DNA of 43,710 bases from an uncultured Pelagibacteraceae bacterium. GTDB taxonomy: Bacteria > Pseudomonadota > Alphaproteobacteria > Pelagibacterales > Pelagibacteraceae. The notes below the pieces were generated by a model. The model saw only the letters and a program-made list of their open reading frames with translations. It did no database searches and had not been told where the DNA came from. This document shows positions 5,947 through 24,589 of this stretch, piece after piece. A program made the translations under genes and the position numbers. Numbering within the stretch: the first letter of the stretch is position 1; each line of letters begins with the position of its first letter. The stretch lies in NCBI GenBank assembly GCA_902517455.1, contig CABYCN010000007.1, positions 1-43,710 on the forward strand. The letters run 5' to 3'.

Positions 5947-7952
5947 CCTGGACTTCTAGTTTCTTCTTCTATTTCAAAATCCTGATTAAAATCAAAATCT
6001 TCAACTTCATTAATTTCTTCGTCAAAAAACGAATTTTTTTCTAAATGTTTTTCTGGTAACTCATCTATAAATCTTGAAGCCATACTATCTATCCAATCAC
6101 CTTGGTAGAATCTGTTCATCGAAAATGATATAATTGCTTTTTTCTTCGCCCTAGTTATTCCAACATAAGCAAGTCGTCTTTCCTCTTCAAGTCCGCTTTG
6201 TCCCTTTTCCTCGATTGATTTTTGATGTGGGAATAACCCTTCTTCCCAACCTGGTAAAAAAACCACATCAAATTCTAAACCTTTAGCGGCATGCATTGTC
6301 ATCATGTTAATTTTTTCTCCTTCCCATTCTTGATCAATAGAAGTTGCAAGAGAGACGTGTTCTAAAAAACTTTCTAAATTGTCAAATTCTTTCATTGCAC
6401 TTAATAATTCTTTTATATTTTCTAGTCTATTTTCATTATCTAAATCTTTTTTATTTTTCAAAACAGCAGAATATCCAGACTCATCCAGCACAGTTTGTAG
6501 CAGTTTTACATGTGTAAATTTTTTAATTTTTAAGTCCTCTCTCCATTTGTTTATAGAATTTAGAAATAAATTTAATCCAACTTTTGCCTTTGGTTTAATC
6601 AAATTTTTTTCAATCATTTTAAGCGATGCTCTCTCCAAACTTAATTTGTTATCTTTTGCAAATTTATGAATATTTTTAAGAGTACTATCACCAATTGATC
6701 TCTTAGGGTTATTTACAATTCTTTCAAAAGCCAAATCATCTTTTTCCTGATGGATCAATCTTAAATAAGCAACACAATCTTTAATTTCTGATCTCTCATA
6801 AAATTTAGTTCCACCTAAAATTCTGTACGGCATACCTACTTTAAGGAATCTTTCCTCAAATTCCCTTGTTTGGAAAATAGCTCTAACAAGAATAGCAACA
6901 TTGTTGTAAGAAAATTTGTTTTTTATTCTTTTTTCTATTTCATCAGATATTCCAATTGCCTCATCTTTACCATTTTTAAAGCAATTTAATTTGACTAGGT
7001 CTCCATCCTCCATTGAGGTTATTAAAGTTTTACCAACTCGATTTTTATTATTGGAAATAAGATTAGAAGCAACTGATAATATATTTTGTGAAGATCTGTA
7101 ATTTTGTTCGAGTCTTATTATCTTTGTGTTTTTATAAACTTGATCAAATTCTAAAAAATTTTTTATTTCTGCTCCCCGCCAACTATAAATCGACTGATCA
7201 TCATCACCAACACAACATATATTTTTATTTTTTTCCGATAATAGATTTAGCCATTTACTTTGAATAAAATTAGTATCTTGATATTCATCTACTAGAATAT
7301 ATTTAAAATTTTTTGAGTAAATTTCTTTGATATCAGAATTTAATTCTAAAATTTTAACAGTATGTAAAATTAAGTCCCCAAAATCACATGAATTTAGATC
7401 TACTAATTTTTGTTGATAAATTTTATATAAAGGTAAAATATTTTTTTCATAAATATCTTTATTATTGATCACGACCTCAGATGGATAGTATCCTTTGTTT
7501 TTCCAACGATCAATTATTGTTAAAATAAATTTAGGAGATAGTTGTTTAATATCTATATTTTCAGACTTACAAATATTTTTAATAAGTCTTGTTTGATCAT
7601 CTGTGTCTATTATTGTAAAATTTGAGTTTAGGTTTGCTGCAGATGCATGTTTTCTCAATAATTTTGCACAGATAGAATGAAATGTTCCCAACCAAGAGAG
7701 ACCAGTGGCTGTAGAGCCAAGAATTTTGCTAACCCTACTTTGCATTTCTTTTGCAGCTTTATTTGTAAAAGTTACAGCTAAAATTTGGTTGGGAAAGGCT
7801 TTTTTTTTATTGATAATATTTGCAATTCTTGAAGTTAAGACCTTAGTCTTCCCTGAACCTGCTCCAGCTACTATTAATAGTGGACCATCAAGGCTCATCA
7901 CAGCTTCTTTTTGAGCTTTATTAAGATTTTTCAAATATTCTGTGTCTATCAT
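5916..7952 (-). CDS. uvrD: UvrD/PcrA-type superfamily 1 DNA helicase
   Basis: This is a 3'-5' DNA helicase for nucleotide excision repair, mismatch repair and replication-fork clearance. All SF1A motifs are present in order: Walker A AGAGSGKT at residues 29-36, motif II DEYQD at 222-226, motif III DDDQSIYSWRGA, motif IV with QNYRSSQNI, motif V TMHAAKGLEFD, and motif VI YVGITRAKK. At 678 aa it is slightly shorter than E. coli UvrD (720), mainly after motif VI. In the coding strand the ATG is the end of a run of 15 A (plus-strand T run 7952-7966), so there is no Shine-Dalgarno sequence. Whether it acts as UvrD, PcrA or Rep cannot be settled by eye. Confidence 0.94.
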   Translation of the reverse strand: MIDTEYLKNLNKAQKEAVMSLDGPLLIVAGAGSGKTKVLTSRIANIINKKKAFPNQILAVTFTNKAAKEMQSRVSKILGSTATGLSWLGTFHSICAKLLRKHASAANLNSNFTIIDTDDQTRLIKNICKSENIDIKQLSPKFILTIIDRWKNKGYYPSEVVINNKDIYEKNILPLYKIYQQKLVDLNSCDFGDLILHTVKILELNSDIKEIYSKNFKYILVDEYQDTNFIQSKWLNLLSEKNKNICCVGDDDQSIYSWRGAEIKNFLEFDQVYKNTKIIRLEQNYRSSQNILSVASNLISNNKNRVGKTLITSMEDGDLVKLNCFKNGKDEAIGISDEIEKRIKNKFSYNNVAILVRAIFQTREFEERFLKVGMPYRILGGTKFYERSEIKDCVAYLRLIHQEKDDLAFERIVNNPKRSIGDSTLKNIHKFAKDNKLSLERASLKMIEKNLIKPKAKVGLNLFLNSINKWREDLKIKKFTHVKLLQTVLDESGYSAVLKNKKDLDNENRLENIKELLSAMKEFDNLESFLEHVSLATSIDQEWEGEKINMMTMHAAKGLEFDVVFLPGWEEGLFPHQKSIEEKGQSGLEEERRLAYVGITRAKKKAIISFSMNRFYQGDWIDSMASRFIDELPEKHLEKNSFFDEEINEVEDFDFNQDFEIEEETRSPGWIRYQKRIK

Positions 7953-18743: not shown

Positions 18744-19517
18744 ATGAAAAAACTTAAATTGTTTGCTCTTACAGTTGTAGCCCTGATGGGTATTACAACA
18801 GTAGCAAACGCTGCGACCGCTATGTTAGCTCAAGATGACTTCGTTGGAATATCTTTTTGGGTAATTTCAATGGGTATGTTGGCATCAACAGCTTTTTTCT
18901 TTATGGAGAGAAGTACTGTTAATCCTGCATGGAAAACATCTGTAACAGTAGCTGGTCTTGTAACTGGTATCGCTTTTATCCATTACATGTATATGAGAGA
19001 CGTATGGGTAAGTACAGGTGATTCACCAACAGTATATAGGTATATTGACTGGTTAATTACTGTGCCATTACAGATGATAGAATTTTATTTAATTCTAGTA
19101 GCTGTAAGAAAAGCAAGTTCTGGAATTTTCTGGAGATTGTTAATTGGTTCACTAGTAATGTTAATCGGAGGATATCTTGGAGAAGCTGGATACATCAACG
19201 CTACACTTGGTTTCGTAATTGGTATGGCAGGTTGGGTATACATTCTTTATGAAATATTCTCAGGTGAAGCTGGAAAAGCTGCTTCTAAAAGTGGAAACAA
19301 AGCTCTTGTTACTGCTTTTGGTGCGATGAGAATGATCGTTACAGTAGGTTGGGCAATTTACCCACTAGGTTACGTATTTGGTTACCTAACTGGTGGTGTA
19401 GACGCTAACTCACTAAACGTCGTCTACAATTTAGCTGACTTCATTAACAAAATTGCATTCGGTCTAGTAATTTGGGCTGCTGCAGTAAGTTCTGGAGCTG
19501 GTGCAAGAAGCAGATAA
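18744..19517 (+). CDS. Proteorhodopsin, blue-absorbing type (light-driven proton pump)
   Basis: A retinal-binding seven-helix pump that exports protons when lit. The 257 aa begin with a cleavable signal peptide (cut predicted after ANA, residue 23). Using green proteorhodopsin numbering plus five, key residues are the H80 proton-acceptor partner, D102 (acceptor, in RYIDW), E113 (donor, in MIEFY), D232, and K236, which forms the retinal Schiff base (ADFINKIAFG). The spectral-tuning position (105 in the reference) is Q110, the blue-tuned residue. The acceptor/donor pair D and E indicates a proton pump, not a sodium or chloride pump. No retinal-synthesis gene is in the window. A strong RBS precedes it and a strong terminator follows. 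Confidence 0.97.
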   Translation: MKKLKLFALTVVALMGITTVANAATAMLAQDDFVGISFWVISMGMLASTAFFFMERSTVNPAWKTSVTVAGLVTGIAFIHYMYMRDVWVSTGDSPTVYRYIDWLITVPLQMIEFYLILVAVRKASSGIFWRLLIGSLVMLIGGYLGEAGYINATLGFVIGMAGWVYILYEIFSGEAGKAASKSGNKALVTAFGAMRMIVTVGWAIYPLGYVFGYLTGGVDANSLNVVYNLADFINKIAFGLVIWAAAVSSGAGARSR

Positions 19518-19537
19518 TAACTACTAAAATATAATTT

Positions 19538-19578
19538 TAGGGCGAGTATGTTTTTACATACTTGCCCTATTTTTTTTT
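19538..19578 (+). terminator. Rho-independent terminator after proteorhodopsin
   Basis: A stem of about 14 base pairs (5' arm TAGGGCGAGTATGT, 3' arm ACATACTTGCCCTA, one G-U pair) with a TTTT loop is followed by a run of nine T. It begins 20 bases after the proteorhodopsin stop and ends 17 bases before the ferredoxin ATG. This would cap the proteorhodopsin transcript while allowing partial read-through into the redox genes. Confidence 0.93.
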
Positions 19579-19595
19579 AGGGCTATATAAATCAT

Positions 19596-19916
19596 ATGCC
19601 AAAAATTACTTACATTACGCACAACAAAGAAAGTCACACAATTGAGGTTCAAAATGGTTTAACTGTTATGGAAGGAGCAGTCCAAAACGATATTCCTGGA
19701 ATAGATGCGGATTGTGGTGGAGGTATGGCTTGTGCAACTTGCCATGTTTATGTCAAAGAAGATTGGTTAGATAAACTTCCAAAAAAAGAGGATGGGGAGG
19801 AAGATATGTTAGATATGGCATTTGAACCAAAACCAAATAGTAGACTTAGTTGTCAACTAACTGTCTCAGATAAATTGGATGGACTGATAGTTGACATACC
19901 GTCTAAGCAGACTTAA
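19596..19916 (+). CDS. [2Fe-2S] ferredoxin, adrenodoxin type
   Basis: A 106-aa soluble electron carrier. The four cluster ligands follow the C-x5-C-x2-C...C pattern: C40, C46, C49 ([11 protein letters not shown]) and C86 (RLSCQL). The '[17 protein letters not shown]' stretch is typical of adrenodoxin/ISC-type or P450-type ferredoxins. Its stop codon is directly followed by the ATG of a ferredoxin-NADP reductase, its likely partner. Together they could pass NADPH electrons to a downstream oxygenase, desaturase or Fe-S assembly step. The link to proteorhodopsin upstream is positional. Confidence 0.92.
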
Positions 19917-20933
19917 ATGATTAATACAGATGCATTAATAATTGGAGCTGGGCCAACGGGTTTATTTACAGCGCATCAACTAAAACTAATTGGACTTAGT
20001 TGTGAGGTGGTTGATAATCTAGATAAAGTTGGTGGTCAGTGTATTGAGCTTTATCCCGATAAACCAATTTATGATATCCCAGCAGTCCCAGAATGCACAG
20101 GTGAAGAATTGACAAATAATTTAATCAAGCAGTTAAAACCTTTTGATATCAAATTTCATTTAAATGAGAGGGTTGATGAGGTTAAAAGGGATAACAATAA
20201 TTGGTTTGTTAAAACAAATAATGATAAAATTTTTTTGACTCCAAATGTTATAATCGCTGGCGGAGTAGGGTCGTTTGAACCTAGAAAGTTTTCTCCAAAA
20301 GAGTGTGAAAAATTTGAAAATAAGTATTTATTTTATGCTGTTAAAGATAAAAAAATTTTTGAGGGCAAAACCGTTACAATTTTTGGTGGTGGAGATAGTG
20401 CATTAGATTGGGCGGTTGAGTTGTCAAAAAATTCTAAAGTGAATTTAGTGCATAGAAGAGATGAGTTTAGAGGCGCAGAATCTACTGTAAATAAAATGAA
20501 AGAATTAGTAAATTCAGAAAGAATGAATCTTTTTACAAAATATCAATTAAACAATGTGCGTGGCTCTGATCAAATACAAAGTATTGACTTAAAACATGAC
20601 GACGGGCAAACTAAAAATTTAGAGACAGATTATGTTTTAGGATTTTTTGGACTAATTATGCAACTTGGCCCAATTGCAGAATGGGGACTTAATATTGATA
20701 AAAAAACTATTTCTGTTGATACTAAAAATTTTGAGACAAACCAAAAAGGTATTTATGCTGTTGGGGATATTTGTTCCTATCCAGGAAAACTAAAACTTAT
20801 TTTATCAGGTTTCCACGAAGGTGCTTTAGCAGCAAGAGCTTGTTTTAAACTAGCTAGGCCAAATGAAAAATATAGATTTGAATTTACTACAACTTCCTCA
20901 AAATTACTTAAAAGACTCGGCAAAAAAGAGTGA
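19917..20933 (+). CDS. Ferredoxin-NADP+ reductase, thioredoxin-reductase-like type
   Basis: A 338-aa flavoprotein that moves electrons between NADPH and ferredoxin. It has the FAD-binding GAGPTG at residues 10-15, a KVGGQCIELYPDKPIYDIP segment typical of the YumC/Fnr2 family, the NADPH-binding FGGGDSALDW at 156-165, and the C-terminal FAD motif YAVGDIC. It lacks the C-x-x-C redox pair of true thioredoxin reductases, though annotation pipelines often call it TrxB. It begins at the base after the ferredoxin stop (TAA-ATG) and its own stop overlaps the next GTG start, so ferredoxin, reductase and GST are surely one operon. Confidence 0.9.
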   Translation: MINTDALIIGAGPTGLFTAHQLKLIGLSCEVVDNLDKVGGQCIELYPDKPIYDIPAVPECTGEELTNNLIKQLKPFDIKFHLNERVDEVKRDNNNWFVKTNNDKIFLTPNVIIAGGVGSFEPRKFSPKECEKFENKYLFYAVKDKKIFEGKTVTIFGGGDSALDWAVELSKNSKVNLVHRRDEFRGAESTVNKMKELVNSERMNLFTKYQLNNVRGSDQIQSIDLKHDDGQTKNLETDYVLGFFGLIMQLGPIAEWGLNIDKKTISVDTKNFETNQKGIYAVGDICSYPGKLKLILSGFHEGALAARACFKLARPNEKYRFEFTTTSSKLLKRLGKKE

Positions 20934-21556
20934 TAGAGCTTTTTTCAGCAAATACCCCTAATGGTAAAAAAATTAGTATTATGCTTGAAGAAATTGGATA
21001 CGAATATAAAGTAACAAAAATAGATCTCGATAAAGGTGAACAGTTTAAACCAGATTTCAAAAAAATTAGTCCATTGAGTAAAATTCCAGTAATTATAGAT
21101 CGTAAAAATAATGAAGTTATTTTTGAATCTGGGGCAATTTTAATTTACCTAGCAGAGCAAAGTGGAATGTTTTATAATCAAAAAGAACGAACTAAAATTA
21201 ATCAATGGTTAATGGCTCAGATGGGTTATGTAGGTCCTATGTTAGGTCAACATCATCAGTTTCATCATTACAATCCTGGCAAAAGTAAATTTGGAGAAGA
21301 AAGATATTTTAAGATATCCAAAAGGATATACCAGGAACTTGACGAACGATTATCAAGTTCAAAATTTTTATCTGGTGATAATTATAATATTTCAGATATT
21401 GGTACTTTTCCTTGGATAGCTCGTCATGAATGGCATGATATTGGTTTGAGAAACTATAAAAATCTTACTAGGTGGTATAATGAAATTTCTAGAAGAGAGG
21501 CTGTAATAAAAGGTTTTGCGTTTATCAATCAAGAAGAAATTCCACCTAAGCCTTAA
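20930..21556 (+). CDS. Glutathione S-transferase-like protein (YfcG/YghU type)
   Basis: A 208-aa protein with an N-terminal thioredoxin-fold domain and an all-helical C-terminal domain. The opening ELFSANTPNGKKISIMLEE and the later SKIPVIID and FESGAILIYLA match Nu-class GSTs (YfcG/YghU), where the threonine/asparagine of T-P-N-G contacts glutathione disulfide. These show disulfide-bond reductase activity. The start is GTG at 20930, overlapping the reductase stop (GTGA). Membership of the proteorhodopsin-side redox operon suggests a thiol or peroxide-handling role under light, which is inference. Confidence 0.88.
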   Translation: MIELFSANTPNGKKISIMLEEIGYEYKVTKIDLDKGEQFKPDFKKISPLSKIPVIIDRKNNEVIFESGAILIYLAEQSGMFYNQKERTKINQWLMAQMGYVGPMLGQHHQFHHYNPGKSKFGEERYFKISKRIYQELDERLSSSKFLSGDNYNISDIGTFPWIARHEWHDIGLRNYKNLTRWYNEISRREAVIKGFAFINQEEIPPKP

Positions 21557-21558
21557 CT

Positions 21559-21663
21559 CTAATTTATTGAGCTGAGAAGTCTAAATAAAGAAGCAAATAT
21601 GCCATGACCTGAAAACTCTATAGCTAAGACTACAATAATGATTAATAAAAATTTTTTATTCAT
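21559..21663 (-). CDS. Micro-ORF of 34 codons, predicted single-pass or secreted peptide
   Basis: Third in a chain behind dksA. The ATG at 21663 overlaps the preceding micro-ORF stop as ATGA. It encodes a short basic start (MNKK), a hydrophobic stretch of about 12 residues (FLLIIIVVLAIE), and a tail ending RLLSSIN. The stop TAG is at 21559-21561, three bases from the convergent GST stop. The overlapping starts and typical membrane-segment layout argue that it is translated, but it is below usual gene-calling length. I do not recognise it. It could be a membrane micropeptide or chance. Confidence 0.45.
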   Translation of the reverse strand: MNKKFLLIIIVVLAIEFSGHGIFASLFRLLSSIN

Positions 21664-21785
21664 CTAGTAAATACAAATAATAGTAAAAGGATCCAAAAAA
21701 AAGCATAATAAAAGTAAATATATTTTTTTGTAAAGTTATAGGTTATTGGATTATGTACTTTTTTTTTTTTATTTTTTTTAGTCAT
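21660..21785 (-). CDS. Micro-ORF of 41 codons, lysine-rich head plus one transmembrane helix
   Basis: The ATG at 21785 lies inside the dksA stop region (8-base overlap) and the TGA at 21660-21662 overlaps the next micro-ORF ATG. The predicted peptide has a basic N-terminus (MTKKNKKKK) and one aromatic and leucine-rich hydrophobic helix near the C-terminus (about FYYAFFWILLLLFVF). It crosses runs of 12 and 8 T on the plus strand, so the frame is sensitive to slippage. An upstream in-frame ATG at 21845 lies within dksA and is unlikely. Function unknown. Confidence 0.5.
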   Translation of the reverse strand: MTKKNKKKKVHNPITYNFTKKYIYFYYAFFWILLLLFVFTR

Positions 21786-22302
21786 CAGCATGAACCTTTT
21801 CATTTTTTTCATGTTTTTCTTGTGCCGTAATAGTGTATTTTGCAACTGGCCTAGCCATAAGTCTTTTTAGTCCAATTGGTTCAGCAGTATCAAGACAATA
21901 ACCATAAGTATTATCTTTAATTCTTATTAAAGCTTTATCAATCTCTGAAATTAATTTGATCTGTCTATTTATTGCTTTCATTTCAACATTCTTATCAGTG
22001 TATGAACTTGCTTGATCAACAATATCAGCTGAAATACTATTATCGTCCATGCTTCCATTATAAAGAGCATCATTATTTGCTTTAACTAATTCTTTTTTCC
22101 ATTCTTGTAATTTTATTCTAAAAAATAGTTTATGTTTTTCACACATATATTTCTCCTTATCCTTAGGTATGTAAGTCTTAGAAATCTTAATAGGGCCTTT
22201 AGCAACAAATTTTGGCTTACTAATTACTTTTGTTTTCGTTTTATTTAAAGTCTTGGTTTTACTTTTAGGAACAATTTTTTTTAATTTACTGGCTTTGGGC
22301 AT
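21778..22302 (-). CDS. dksA: DksA/TraR-family RNA polymerase regulator with degenerate zinc finger
   Basis: DksA binds the RNA polymerase secondary channel and, with ppGpp, adjusts rRNA and amino-acid gene transcription. The ATG at 22302 (MPKASKLKK, 174 aa) is preferred to TTG 22338. The N-terminal 50 residues are lysine-rich and low-complexity. The coiled-coil tip keeps the D-x2-D-x-A motif (DIVDQA). The C-terminal motif YGYCLDTAEPIGLKRLMARP retains only one of the four zinc cysteines; the second C-x2-C is TITA. Such cysteine-poor forms are known in alphaproteobacteria. Two micro-ORFs are coupled downstream. Confidence 0.87.
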   Translation of the reverse strand: MPKASKLKKIVPKSKTKTLNKTKTKVISKPKFVAKGPIKISKTYIPKDKEKYMCEKHKLFFRIKLQEWKKELVKANNDALYNGSMDDNSISADIVDQASSYTDKNVEMKAINRQIKLISEIDKALIRIKDNTYGYCLDTAEPIGLKRLMARPVAKYTITAQEKHEKNEKVHADD

Positions 22303-22381
22303 ATCTTTAAATTGAATTCGAGCGAGTATATTCAGCAAAATAGGGGTGTCAAGTAACCTTAATTATTGTAAATATTTAGAA

Positions 22382-23701
22382 ATGAATGAATACAGAAATA
22401 TTAATAATATATTTTACATTTTTGCTTTATCTCATTTAATAATTTGGACACTTGTTCCATCCCTAACAAATAATAATTTGCCGTTGGATACTATTGAGGC
22501 TCTTGCTTGGGGAAGTAATTTAGAATGGGGATTTAACAAACATCCTCCTATGAGCGCTTTTTTTTCTGAAGTTTTTTATAGAATATTTGGTGCACAAGAT
22601 TGGGTATATTATTTATTAAGTCAAATATTTGTTTTAATTGCTTTTTATTTTGTTTTTAAATTTTCTTACGAAATTTTGAAAAATATTAAGTTAAGTTTAA
22701 TTTCTGTTTTGTTACTTGAGTCAATTTATTTTTATAATTTTACCACACCAGAATTTAATGTTAATGTTTGTCAATTACCCTTTTGGTCATTGGTTGTTTA
22801 TTATTCATGGAAAATTTACAGCTCTAAAGAAATTAAATTTATTGATTGTTTTTTAGTTGGTTTGTTTGCTGCAGTCGGATTTTTATCAAAGTACTTATTT
22901 ATTTACTTATTGATATCTATTGATTTGTTATTTATTTATTTAATTTTCATTAAAAAAACAAAAAAATTTGATTTTCAGTATTTAATTACTTTAGAAGTTT
23001 TTATAGTACTTTTAATACCACATATCATTTGGCTTTTTAATAATGAATTTTTAACGATTACTTATGGTTTGAAAAGAACTGGTTTAGAAGGTTCTAGTTT
23101 TGTTGATCACTTGATACAACCTCTTATTTTTTTGATTAAACAAATTGGTATACTGATACCATTTTTCTTTCTAGTTAGTTTATTGATAAAAAGATTAAAA
23201 TTTAAGATTAATTTAAATGATAAAAAATTACTTTTTTTGTTATTTGTAAATATTTTACCTATTTTGTTAATTTTAATTACTTCTCTCATAACTGGATCAA
23301 AAATTAGAACTATGTGGATGACGCCTTTTTATTTATTTTTTGGAATTTTGTTTATATATTTGTTGCAATCTCAAATAGACTTAAAAAAGATTAAGCTATT
23401 TCTATATTCTTTTTTGTTTTTGTTTTTCTTTTCACCTGTTCTTTATTCCTACATTTCTATCGTGAAGGATGATAAAAGGACTGATTATCCAGGGAGAGAT
23501 ATAGCTCGTAAAGTTCAAATTTTATGGGATCAAGATTTTGATAAAGAAATTGAGTTTGTCACAGGAGACGAGTGGAAAGCTGGAAATCTTTCATATCATT
23601 TAAAATCCAGACCTAAATGGGAAGGATACACAAACAATATTAAATTAAATAATTCTTCAAAATTTATTTGTGTAGAAGACGTTTGTTTGGGAAGATATTA
23701 A
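22382..23701 (+). CDS. ArnT/PMT-like membrane glycosyltransferase
   Basis: An integral membrane protein of about 439 aa with roughly ten hydrophobic helices and a short soluble C-terminus. The first periplasmic loop contains EALAWGSNLEWGFNKHPPMSAF, which resembles the acidic, KHPP-bearing loop of GT83/GT39 family enzymes that use polyprenyl-phosphate sugars to glycosylate lipids or proteins. ATG at 22382 is chosen; an in-frame GTG at 22346 would add 12 polar residues. It is followed 18 bases later by a DPM1-like GT2 that could make its polyprenyl-phosphate sugar donor. The sugar and acceptor are unknown. Confidence 0.82.
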   Translation: MNEYRNINNIFYIFALSHLIIWTLVPSLTNNNLPLDTIEALAWGSNLEWGFNKHPPMSAFFSEVFYRIFGAQDWVYYLLSQIFVLIAFYFVFKFSYEILKNIKLSLISVLLLESIYFYNFTTPEFNVNVCQLPFWSLVVYYSWKIYSSKEIKFIDCFLVGLFAAVGFLSKYLFIYLLISIDLLFIYLIFIKKTKKFDFQYLITLEVFIVLLIPHIIWLFNNEFLTITYGLKRTGLEGSSFVDHLIQPLIFLIKQIGILIPFFFLVSLLIKRLKFKINLNDKKLLFLLFVNILPILLILITSLITGSKIRTMWMTPFYLFFGILFIYLLQSQIDLKKIKLFLYSFLFLFFFSPVLYSYISIVKDDKRTDYPGRDIARKVQILWDQDFDKEIEFVTGDEWKAGNLSYHLKSRPKWEGYTNNIKLNNSSKFICVEDVCLGRY

Positions 23702-23719
23702 AAATATAAGATTTACTTA

Positions 23720-24589
23720 ATGAAAATCAAAATTTTAATACCTGTTTATAATGATTGGCAATCTTTATCTCAATTAATGAATGAAATAAATGATTTAGTG
23801 ATTACTACAGATTTTCAAATTTCTATTATAATAGTCAATGATTCATCAAATCACGATCGTTTGGATGAGGATAAAGATTTAAAAAATATTCATTCAATTA
23901 AAATCTTAAATATGAAAATGAACCAGGGGCATGCAAGATGTATAGCTACAGGACTAAAATACATTTATGAAAAAGAGGATTTTGATTATATCATACCGAT
24001 GGATGGAGACGGTGAGGACAGACCTGAGGAAATAAAAGAATTTTTAAATCAAATTAATAAATCTAACAATAAACCTATTGTAGGAGAAAGAATTAAGAGA
24101 TCTGAAAATTTACTATTTAAAATTTGTTATCGAATACATAAATTGATTACATTAATATTTACTGGTAAATCAATTAAATTTGGAAATTTTACATGTTTAC
24201 CAAAATCTGTAGTAGAAAAAATGATTAATGAAAAAGCTACATGGAATAGTTTTTCAGGATCATTAAAAAAAATTGAAAATGATTTTATTTCTGTGTCATC
24301 AGTGAGAGGTAAAAGATATTTTGGACCCTCTAAGATGAAATTTAATGATTTAATAAAACATTCATTATCAATTGTAAGTGTGTTTAGAAAGACGGTTTTA
24401 ATGCGCTCAGCTTTATTTATGGTTTTGTATATTTTATTAATTAAAAGTAATGCCTCAGTAGTTACTTCTATACCACTAGTAATGATAATAATTATGGTTT
24501 ATTTTATTTCTAAACTTGCTTTAAGAGAGAATATGGATGAACTTGATAATTCATTAAATAATATAGATAATATAGAAAATCTAAAATGA
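23720..24589 (+). CDS. GT2 glycosyltransferase, polyprenyl-phosphate sugar synthase-like
   Basis: A 289-aa protein with a GT-A domain opening KILIPVYNDW, IIIVNDSS near residue 37, NQGHARCIATGL near 72, and the acidic PMDGDGEDRPE block near 96. Two hydrophobic helices lie at the C-terminus (about residues 225-265). This fits enzymes that load mannose, glucose or similar onto undecaprenyl phosphate for a membrane transferase such as the gene just upstream. The stop overlaps the ppc ATG (ATGA), giving translational coupling to a central metabolic gene, probably through genome compaction. Confidence 0.85.
   Translation: MKIKILIPVYNDWQSLSQLMNEINDLVITTDFQISIIIVNDSSNHDRLDEDKDLKNIHSIKILNMKMNQGHARCIATGLKYIYEKEDFDYIIPMDGDGEDRPEEIKEFLNQINKSNNKPIVGERIKRSENLLFKICYRIHKLITLIFTGKSIKFGNFTCLPKSVVEKMINEKATWNSFSGSLKKIENDFISVSSVRGKRYFGPSKMKFNDLIKHSLSIVSVFRKTVLMRSALFMVLYILLIKSNASVVTSIPLVMIIIMVYFISKLALRENMDELDNSLNNIDNIENLK

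Follow-up and report, generated by a model that had tools for sequence, protein, structure and literature searches.

Two very short reading frames directly behind dksA in an uncultured Pelagibacteraceae bacterium raise the question of whether they encode proteins and, if they do, whether these proteins serve the stringent-response regulator to which their starts are chained. The window, the whole stretch of 43,710 nucleotides that was analysed, carries dksA on the minus strand (21778-22302, ATG at 22302), and its 174-aa product was assigned to the DksA-family transcription factors by Pfam DksA_N (1.8e-12) and zf-dskA_traR (9.7e-8), with 102.5 bits against NCBIfam TIGR02420, under the cut-off of 115.5. 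ORF1 (minus strand, 21660-21785) runs from an ATG at 21785 to a stop ending at 21660, and the dksA stop ends at 21778, so that 8 bases are common to both genes. ORF2 (minus strand, 21559-21663) runs from an ATG at 21663 to a stop ending at 21559, and its start shares 4 bases (ATGA) with the stop of ORF1. The glutathione S-transferase-like (GST) gene that converges on them (plus strand, 20930-21556, Pfam GST_N 5.9e-15) has its stop ending at 21556, which leaves 2 bases between the two stops. The coordinates therefore confirmed the original prediction of two minus-strand frames of 41 and 34 codons, overlapping by 8 and 4 bases and filling the gap up to the GST stop, and the run of 12 A that it had placed inside the first frame was located at minus-strand 21770-21759. 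An alternative in-frame ATG upstream at 21791 would give an ORF1 of 43 aa, and most relatives have the ATG at -8 to the dksA stop.

Tight overlaps by themselves are ordinary in this compact DNA, where 7 of 24 co-directional gene pairs of the window overlap or abut, including one at -4 and one at -8. A promoter-like TTGACA-16-TATACT (minus strand, 22325-22352), matching the consensus at 11 of 12 positions, is a candidate promoter of dksA-ORF1-ORF2, and the scan of the whole region for such sites was at chance level (7 found against 6.4 in shuffles). No terminator-like site was seen in 21450-22450, and no Rfam family reached its gathering score in 19000-24000. A block (18744-24589) that is kept in many inspected relatives comprises the genes for rhodopsin, ferredoxin, a pyridine nucleotide-disulphide oxidoreductase, GST and DksA together with two glycosyltransferase genes (PMT_2, GT2), and the small genes sit at its joints. 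The DksA of the window carries about 37 extra residues, rich in lysine, at its N-terminus (22302-22190); in many genomes without ORF1 and ORF2 behind dksA, the dksA matches start at residue 26-38 and the frame has about 138-157 aa only. This DksA contains two cysteines only, of which one falls in the zinc-finger region (YGYCLDTAEPIG), and its score is below the TIGR02420 cut-off; it is possibly of the zinc-free type.

The coding status of the two frames was evaluated by their conservation behind dksA. DksA was scanned against bacterial and archaeal genome contigs, 324 of which encoded a relative, and in the best 80 of these loci both ORFs were present behind dksA in 76. One of the others was cut by a contig end (L047), and three of the 80 held dksA without the pair behind it: the genome of L008 had neither gene, that of L015 had both at another place, and that of L065 had ORF2 with no detectable ORF1. 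For the analysis of selection and frame, 76 sequences per ORF were used, namely 75 loci and the window; L039, in which both ORFs are present with no ATG under the start rule used, was omitted from pN/pS. Restricted to pairs with pS of 0.05-0.6 (2627 for ORF1, 1006 for ORF2 and 1411 for dksA), pooled pN/pS was 0.29 for ORF1, 0.27 for ORF2 and 0.063 for dksA, of which the last 120 codons were taken, and 55%, 61% and 83% of the differences, respectively, fell at third codon positions. The codon-level substitution pattern looked for in SAR11 relatives was thus present, and both ORFs are under protein-level purifying selection, weaker than that on dksA.

The other two forward frames were open in 0 and 0 of the 76 sequences for ORF1 and in 0 and 3 for ORF2. 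Two of the three reverse frames were tested as well; one of them was open in 2 of the 76 ORF1 sequences, and one in 23 of the 76 ORF2 sequences. The register of the ORF2 start to the ORF1 stop was -4 in 51 of the 76 loci, -1 in 18, 0 in 6 and -16 in 1. Frameshifts and stops in close relatives, which had been named as the observation that would speak against the genes, were sought, and what was seen does not speak against them. A suggestion that the A-run might let the frame of ORF1 vary did not hold, as the phase of ORF1 relative to dksA was unchanged in 73 of 76 loci, and in the other three (L026, L039 and L054) ORF1 was in another phase, yet open with the same core sequence. The run has thus left the gene intact in these genomes. 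These results indicated that ORF1 and ORF2 are almost certainly genuine protein-coding genes.

Conservation, pN/pS and AlphaFold models together describe ORF1 as a 41-aa single-pass membrane micropeptide with a Lys-rich N-terminal head, and ORF2 as a 34-aa membrane micropeptide with a conserved I-E-x-S-G-x-G. The relatives of ORF1 had about 37-45 aa, plus one distant relative of 73 aa (L185), in which YY was kept and W was not. Each had one hydrophobic stretch preceded by 7 to 10 net positive charges, with a median N-side charge of +9 and a median best 17-residue hydropathy mean of 2.16. A single helix was predicted at residues 13-40 (mean pLDDT 77), and with this hydropathy it corresponds to one membrane-length hydrophobic helix. 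In 21 diverse rows K21, Y26, Y27 and W31 (window numbering) were invariant, the core being YY...W. The relatives of ORF2 had about 31-41 aa, with a median best 17-residue mean of 2.39 and a median N-side charge of +1. Its model showed a helix at residues 3-17, a break at S-G-H-G and a helix at 22-33 (mean pLDDT 89); the peptide is hydrophobic enough for a membrane, but the first predicted helix spans residues 3-17 only before the break. Seven residues (I15, E16, S18, G19, G21, I22 and S25) were invariant in 28 diverse rows. The basic head and hydrophobic segment described earlier for both peptides were borne out by charge and hydropathy in ORF1 and hold as well for ORF2, where the charge bias is slight.

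No convincing match for either peptide was obtained from Pfam, NCBIfam, PHROGs, PADLOC or the PDB. For ORF1, Pfam Renin_r was matched with E 0.049 by the single protein and in 34 of 50 rows (best 0.0034); the window ORF1 reached 14.1 bits against a cut-off of 27.8, and the match, to a eukaryotic transmembrane segment, was read as compositional. Pfam Ac81 was matched by 6 of 42 ORF2 rows (best 0.12) and was regarded as unconvincing. In PHROGs, the best match for ORF2 was 0.0035 to a family of unknown function, and that for ORF1 was 0.0012 in 4 of 21 rows, also of unknown function, with none for the window ORF1. Searching the PDB by profile gave a best E of 1.5 in one search and nothing in another, and searching it by fold found nothing, an expected outcome for peptides of one or two helices. 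Within the portions of the SAR11 and Pelagibacter literature covered by our searches (small proteins, small ORFs, dksA, ribosome profiling and overlapping genes), nothing about these genes was found.

The distribution of the two genes was determined with profiles widened stepwise (A1 to A5) and run on 247 Pelagibacterales genomes. Both genes were found in 142 of them and neither in 86, with ORF1 alone in 12 and ORF2 alone in 7. For the 159 genomes of the window's genus, the numbers with both, with ORF1 alone, with ORF2 alone and with neither were 127, 9, 4 and 19 (Fisher p 2.6e-14, which overstates the association because genomes are not independent events and the counts carry no tree correction), and in a second genus (23 genomes) they were 15, 3, 3 and 2, with no significant association (p 0.29). 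ORF1 matches were dropped in 3 of 157 genomes (G185 with 5e-4, G231 with 9e-4 and G254 with 7e-6), and G231, which also carries ORF2, was counted under ORF2 only. ORF2 matches were dropped in 4 of 153 genomes (G150, G168, G221 and G244, E 0.005-0.0096), that of G168 sitting opposite a 552-aa frame. The counted matches belong to the genera g1 and g8 of a single family, and the ORF1 matches of G254 and G185 come from a third genus (g9) that was left out of the count. When the ORF2 profile was run on 385 genomes from across the class, three matches were obtained, in the window's own genome, in another of its genus and in G365; the last lies within a 142-aa frame (E 0.0027) and was read as spurious. 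One match per genome was obtained in nearly all genomes.

Among the 142 genomes with both genes, the two adjoin in 85 and are apart in 57. Of these 57, 16 have them on the same contig and 39 on different contigs, and for 2 the position of ORF1 was not listed; genes on different contigs were treated as apart, and a few of these 39 may be assembly breaks (G157 at a contig start). Four single-contig genomes of the same genus (G043, G046, G050 and G012) contained neither gene, and the pair is therefore dispensable. In G150, G154 and G221 ORF1 was found, but at the site that ORF2 occupies elsewhere the two glycosyltransferase genes are joined with nothing between them. At two such sites (L179:3850-3853 and L181:3695-3698) the glycosyltransferase genes overlap by 4 bases, and this junction represents either a clean loss of ORF2 or the state before its gain. 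In G155, ORF2 lies right behind dksA and no ORF1 was found. The interdependence of ORF1 and ORF2 is consequently not absolute.

The reading that we prefer, with a probability of about one half, is that the pair are SAR11-specific single-pass membrane micropeptides which, as small subunits, assist or stabilise one larger membrane complex. ORF1 would lie N-in, as judged from charge only, with its lysine-rich tail in the cytoplasm and a single helix bearing a YY...W face. ORF2 may also lie N-in, on the slight charge bias, with a short helix, a second short helix and between them a putatively rigid S-G-x-G break behind the invariant Glu. Both would serve the same process as small subunits of one larger inner-membrane complex, because most genomes have either both genes or neither, and this holds also where the two are apart. 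A functional partnership of the two comes close to an even chance while falling short of it, and the accessory-subunit role is a tentative assignment, a little weaker than the partnership. CydX, KdpF and AcrZ act as small accessory or stabilising subunits of larger membrane complexes; for ORF1 and ORF2, no partner complex was pointed to by structure or by family matches in Pfam, NCBIfam, PHROGs or the PDB. A more speculative version, which we hold to be possible and rather doubtful, is that the two make up a SAR11-specific membrane micro-complex not seen before, or are the small subunits still missing from a major membrane machine of SAR11; their function would keep them together while the genes roam and mostly borrow unrelated operons for expression.

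The main alternative is that the two small membrane proteins are independent and do different jobs, their co-occurrence reflecting shared descent and lineages that lost both. Genomes with only one of the genes exist, the counts lack a phylogenetic correction and the association in the second genus is not significant, all of which would fit this explanation. Nevertheless, genomes with both genes apart outnumber those with one alone (57 against 19), and in the window's genus 19 of 159 genomes lack both, against 13 that lack just one. Separate jobs are thus a possibility to be taken seriously, at perhaps a minority share of belief.

The break in the predicted ORF2 structure could instead mark the end of a signal peptide. 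ORF2 would then be the precursor of a secreted peptide, with MNKK as N-region, a hydrophobic core and E-x-S-G-x-G as c-region, cleaved by signal peptidase after G21 to release about 13 residues, and ORF1 would help in export or immunity. Signal peptidase cleavage sites follow a rule of small residues at -3 and -1, positions that G19 and G21 would take at this plausible site; the predicted helix breaks there (3-17 and 22-33), and the released part keeps S-L-x-R/K-L/F in most rows. A signal peptide, however, would be expected to accept Ala at these two positions and would hardly require a Glu, whereas E16, S18, G19 and G21 are invariant in the 28 diverse rows, and no common processing, export or immunity gene was seen among the Pfam-typed neighbours. 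This origin of the conserved motif was considered unlikely.

The genomic contexts of the two genes bear on whether they belong to dksA. Where the pair was linked, it lay directly behind dksA in 76 of 85 genomes and elsewhere in 9, and in some relatives dksA and the pair were separated by 0.9 to 6.6 kb of other DNA. In L119 and L120 (G047 and G224), G118 and G052 about 4.8-6.6 kb of other genes lie between them; in L119 a TPR/glycosyltransferase-9 gene stands just before the pair and the intervening block also holds a MOSC gene. The pair was found after carB in L122 and after the MOSC gene that follows carAB in L123 and L124, where L165 has ORF2 alone. ORF1 was found before an arginase-family gene (L126-L129, L134, L158, L168, L185 and L187), after an SDR gene (L130, L132, L166 and L167), after an aldehyde dehydrogenase gene (L143-L145, L183 and L184) and, in g8, after a thiolase gene (L142 and L190-L193) or between rhodopsin and ferredoxin (L140 at 7358-7495 and L141 at about 7427-7558). 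ORF2 was located between two glycosyltransferase genes (L125, L133, L135, L162-L164 and L169), behind a NUBPL/Mrp-type gene (L136) and alone between convergent and divergent genes (L131, L137, L138, L140, L141, L159 and L170). Several neighbours at the inspected sites were named by clustering with one Pfam-typed member. In ten g8 genomes the ORF1-ORF2 spacing is about 5.3 kb, as in the rhodopsin-ferredoxin layout, two of them having been inspected. A dependency on proteorhodopsin, suggested by the position of ORF1 in L140 and L141, was rejected because four single-contig genomes without the pair (L148-L151) keep the rhodopsin cluster c1 gene, which in L150 is cut by the end of the stretch.

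The Pfam-typed neighbours comprised carbamoyl-phosphate synthase, MOSC, the arginase family, aldehyde dehydrogenase, SDR, PsiE, thiolase, glycosyltransferases, a NUBPL/Mrp-type ATPase, rhodopsin and ferredoxin, and no common functional theme was seen among them, many neighbours being untyped. At many of the sites the small gene adjoins its neighbour either with an overlap or across only a few bases. By the ORF calls made here, co-directional overlaps occurred in many copies, of 1 base with SDR and 4 bases with arginase and glycosyltransferase genes, and longer ones reached 8 bases (ferredoxin in L140, arginase in L134 and L168) and 14 bases (carB in L122). As the overlapped neighbours vary, the chained start is a habit of the compact genome and does not denote a bond with DksA. 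Chaining to a neighbour was not universal, since ORF2 stands alone in seven inspected loci, and such genomes show that ORF2 needs no host transcript. In these compact genomes the pair would usually obtain its transcription and translation from an adjoining gene, which here would be dksA.

A role as stringent-response accessories, in which the peptides are made together with DksA and tune RNA polymerase or ppGpp signalling, is suggested by the 76 of 85 linked genomes with the pair directly behind dksA and by the promoter-like site upstream of that gene. Against it, the genes are apart in 57 of the 142 genomes with both, the inspected copies adjoin unrelated genes in varied order, three of the 80 dksA loci are without the pair, and dksA occurs in family f2, in which neither ORF was detected at the thresholds applied. 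Across the family, linkage to dksA was not stable, with 76 of 85 linked pairs behind dksA, 9 elsewhere and 57 genomes with the genes apart. Gene order thus indicates that the dksA link of the pair is local and that the pair is no dksA accessory; we consider a part in the stringent response very improbable. Of the original prediction, a coupled pair of membrane micropeptides linked to a stringent-response regulator, the coding, conserved and membrane-type nature of the peptides and their chaining to dksA in the window held, and the functional link was not supported, as the pair adjoins unrelated genes in relatives.

The same mobility might suggest selfish or type I toxin-like hydrophobic peptides hopping between gene ends, since both are small and hydrophobic and occur in several insertion contexts with no stable neighbour. 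Such elements are hard to reconcile with one match per genome in nearly all genomes and conservation across two genera. PADLOC had no match for the pair, 50,697 phage records searched with one ORF2 relative gave none, none of 210 pattern matches of ORF1 in viral contigs was confirmed, and no Rfam family was found in 19000-24000 at gathering scores. Little credence was left for this explanation. Chance ORFs, for which the 29% GC of the window, its long list of short ORFs and the ORF2 reverse frame open in 23 of 76 sequences could be adduced, are refuted by codon-level conservation and in-frame retention and have next to no probability.

The accessory-subunit reading was finally compared with known small membrane proteins. 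ORF2 resembles the TatA/TatE-type fold in its predicted helix 3-17, S-G-H-G break and helix 22-33, but no Tat family was among the Pfam matches for ORF1 or ORF2 at E up to 1, and its N-terminal positive residues probably give it the opposite orientation to that of TatA. Type I toxin peptides of the Hok, Ibs and Ldr type are small and hydrophobic as ORF1 and ORF2 are, whereas the pair shows strict side-chain conservation, a single match in nearly every genome and no family match. Among the 28 relatives of ORF2, one matched NF041474 (E 0.008), which points to the YkgR-type orphan small membrane proteins; this weak and single match, which the window ORF2 does not have, was read as generic hydrophobic similarity.

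AcrZ is like the pair in having fewer than about 50 aa and one membrane helix. The same likeness holds for CydX, CcoQ/CcoS and KdpF, and CydX, CcoQ, CcoS, CcmD and KdpF are named as small membrane proteins of such kind in the Pro-SMP paper (PMC10903887). The pair differs in matching none of the CydX, CcoQ, CcoS, KdpF or AcrZ families at curated thresholds; the sole match to NCBIfam ccoS was one of 28 ORF2 relatives (E 0.35), with no such Pfam match, and no oxidase or Kdp genes were among the Pfam-typed neighbours, many neighbours being untyped. Genes for CydX/KdpF-type subunits usually lie with their complex, whereas ORF1 and ORF2 stay with no particular gene. Their changes of place, often with a few bases shared, advise caution against inferring function from the overlap with one neighbour in compact genomes. 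The gene set of SAR11 is among the smallest of free-living cells, and retained genes are therefore presumed to be useful. Small single-pass membrane proteins are a known kind, these two families were not found in the libraries and literature searched, and two conserved micropeptide families without a convincing curated-library match are a testable addition to the SAR11 gene set.
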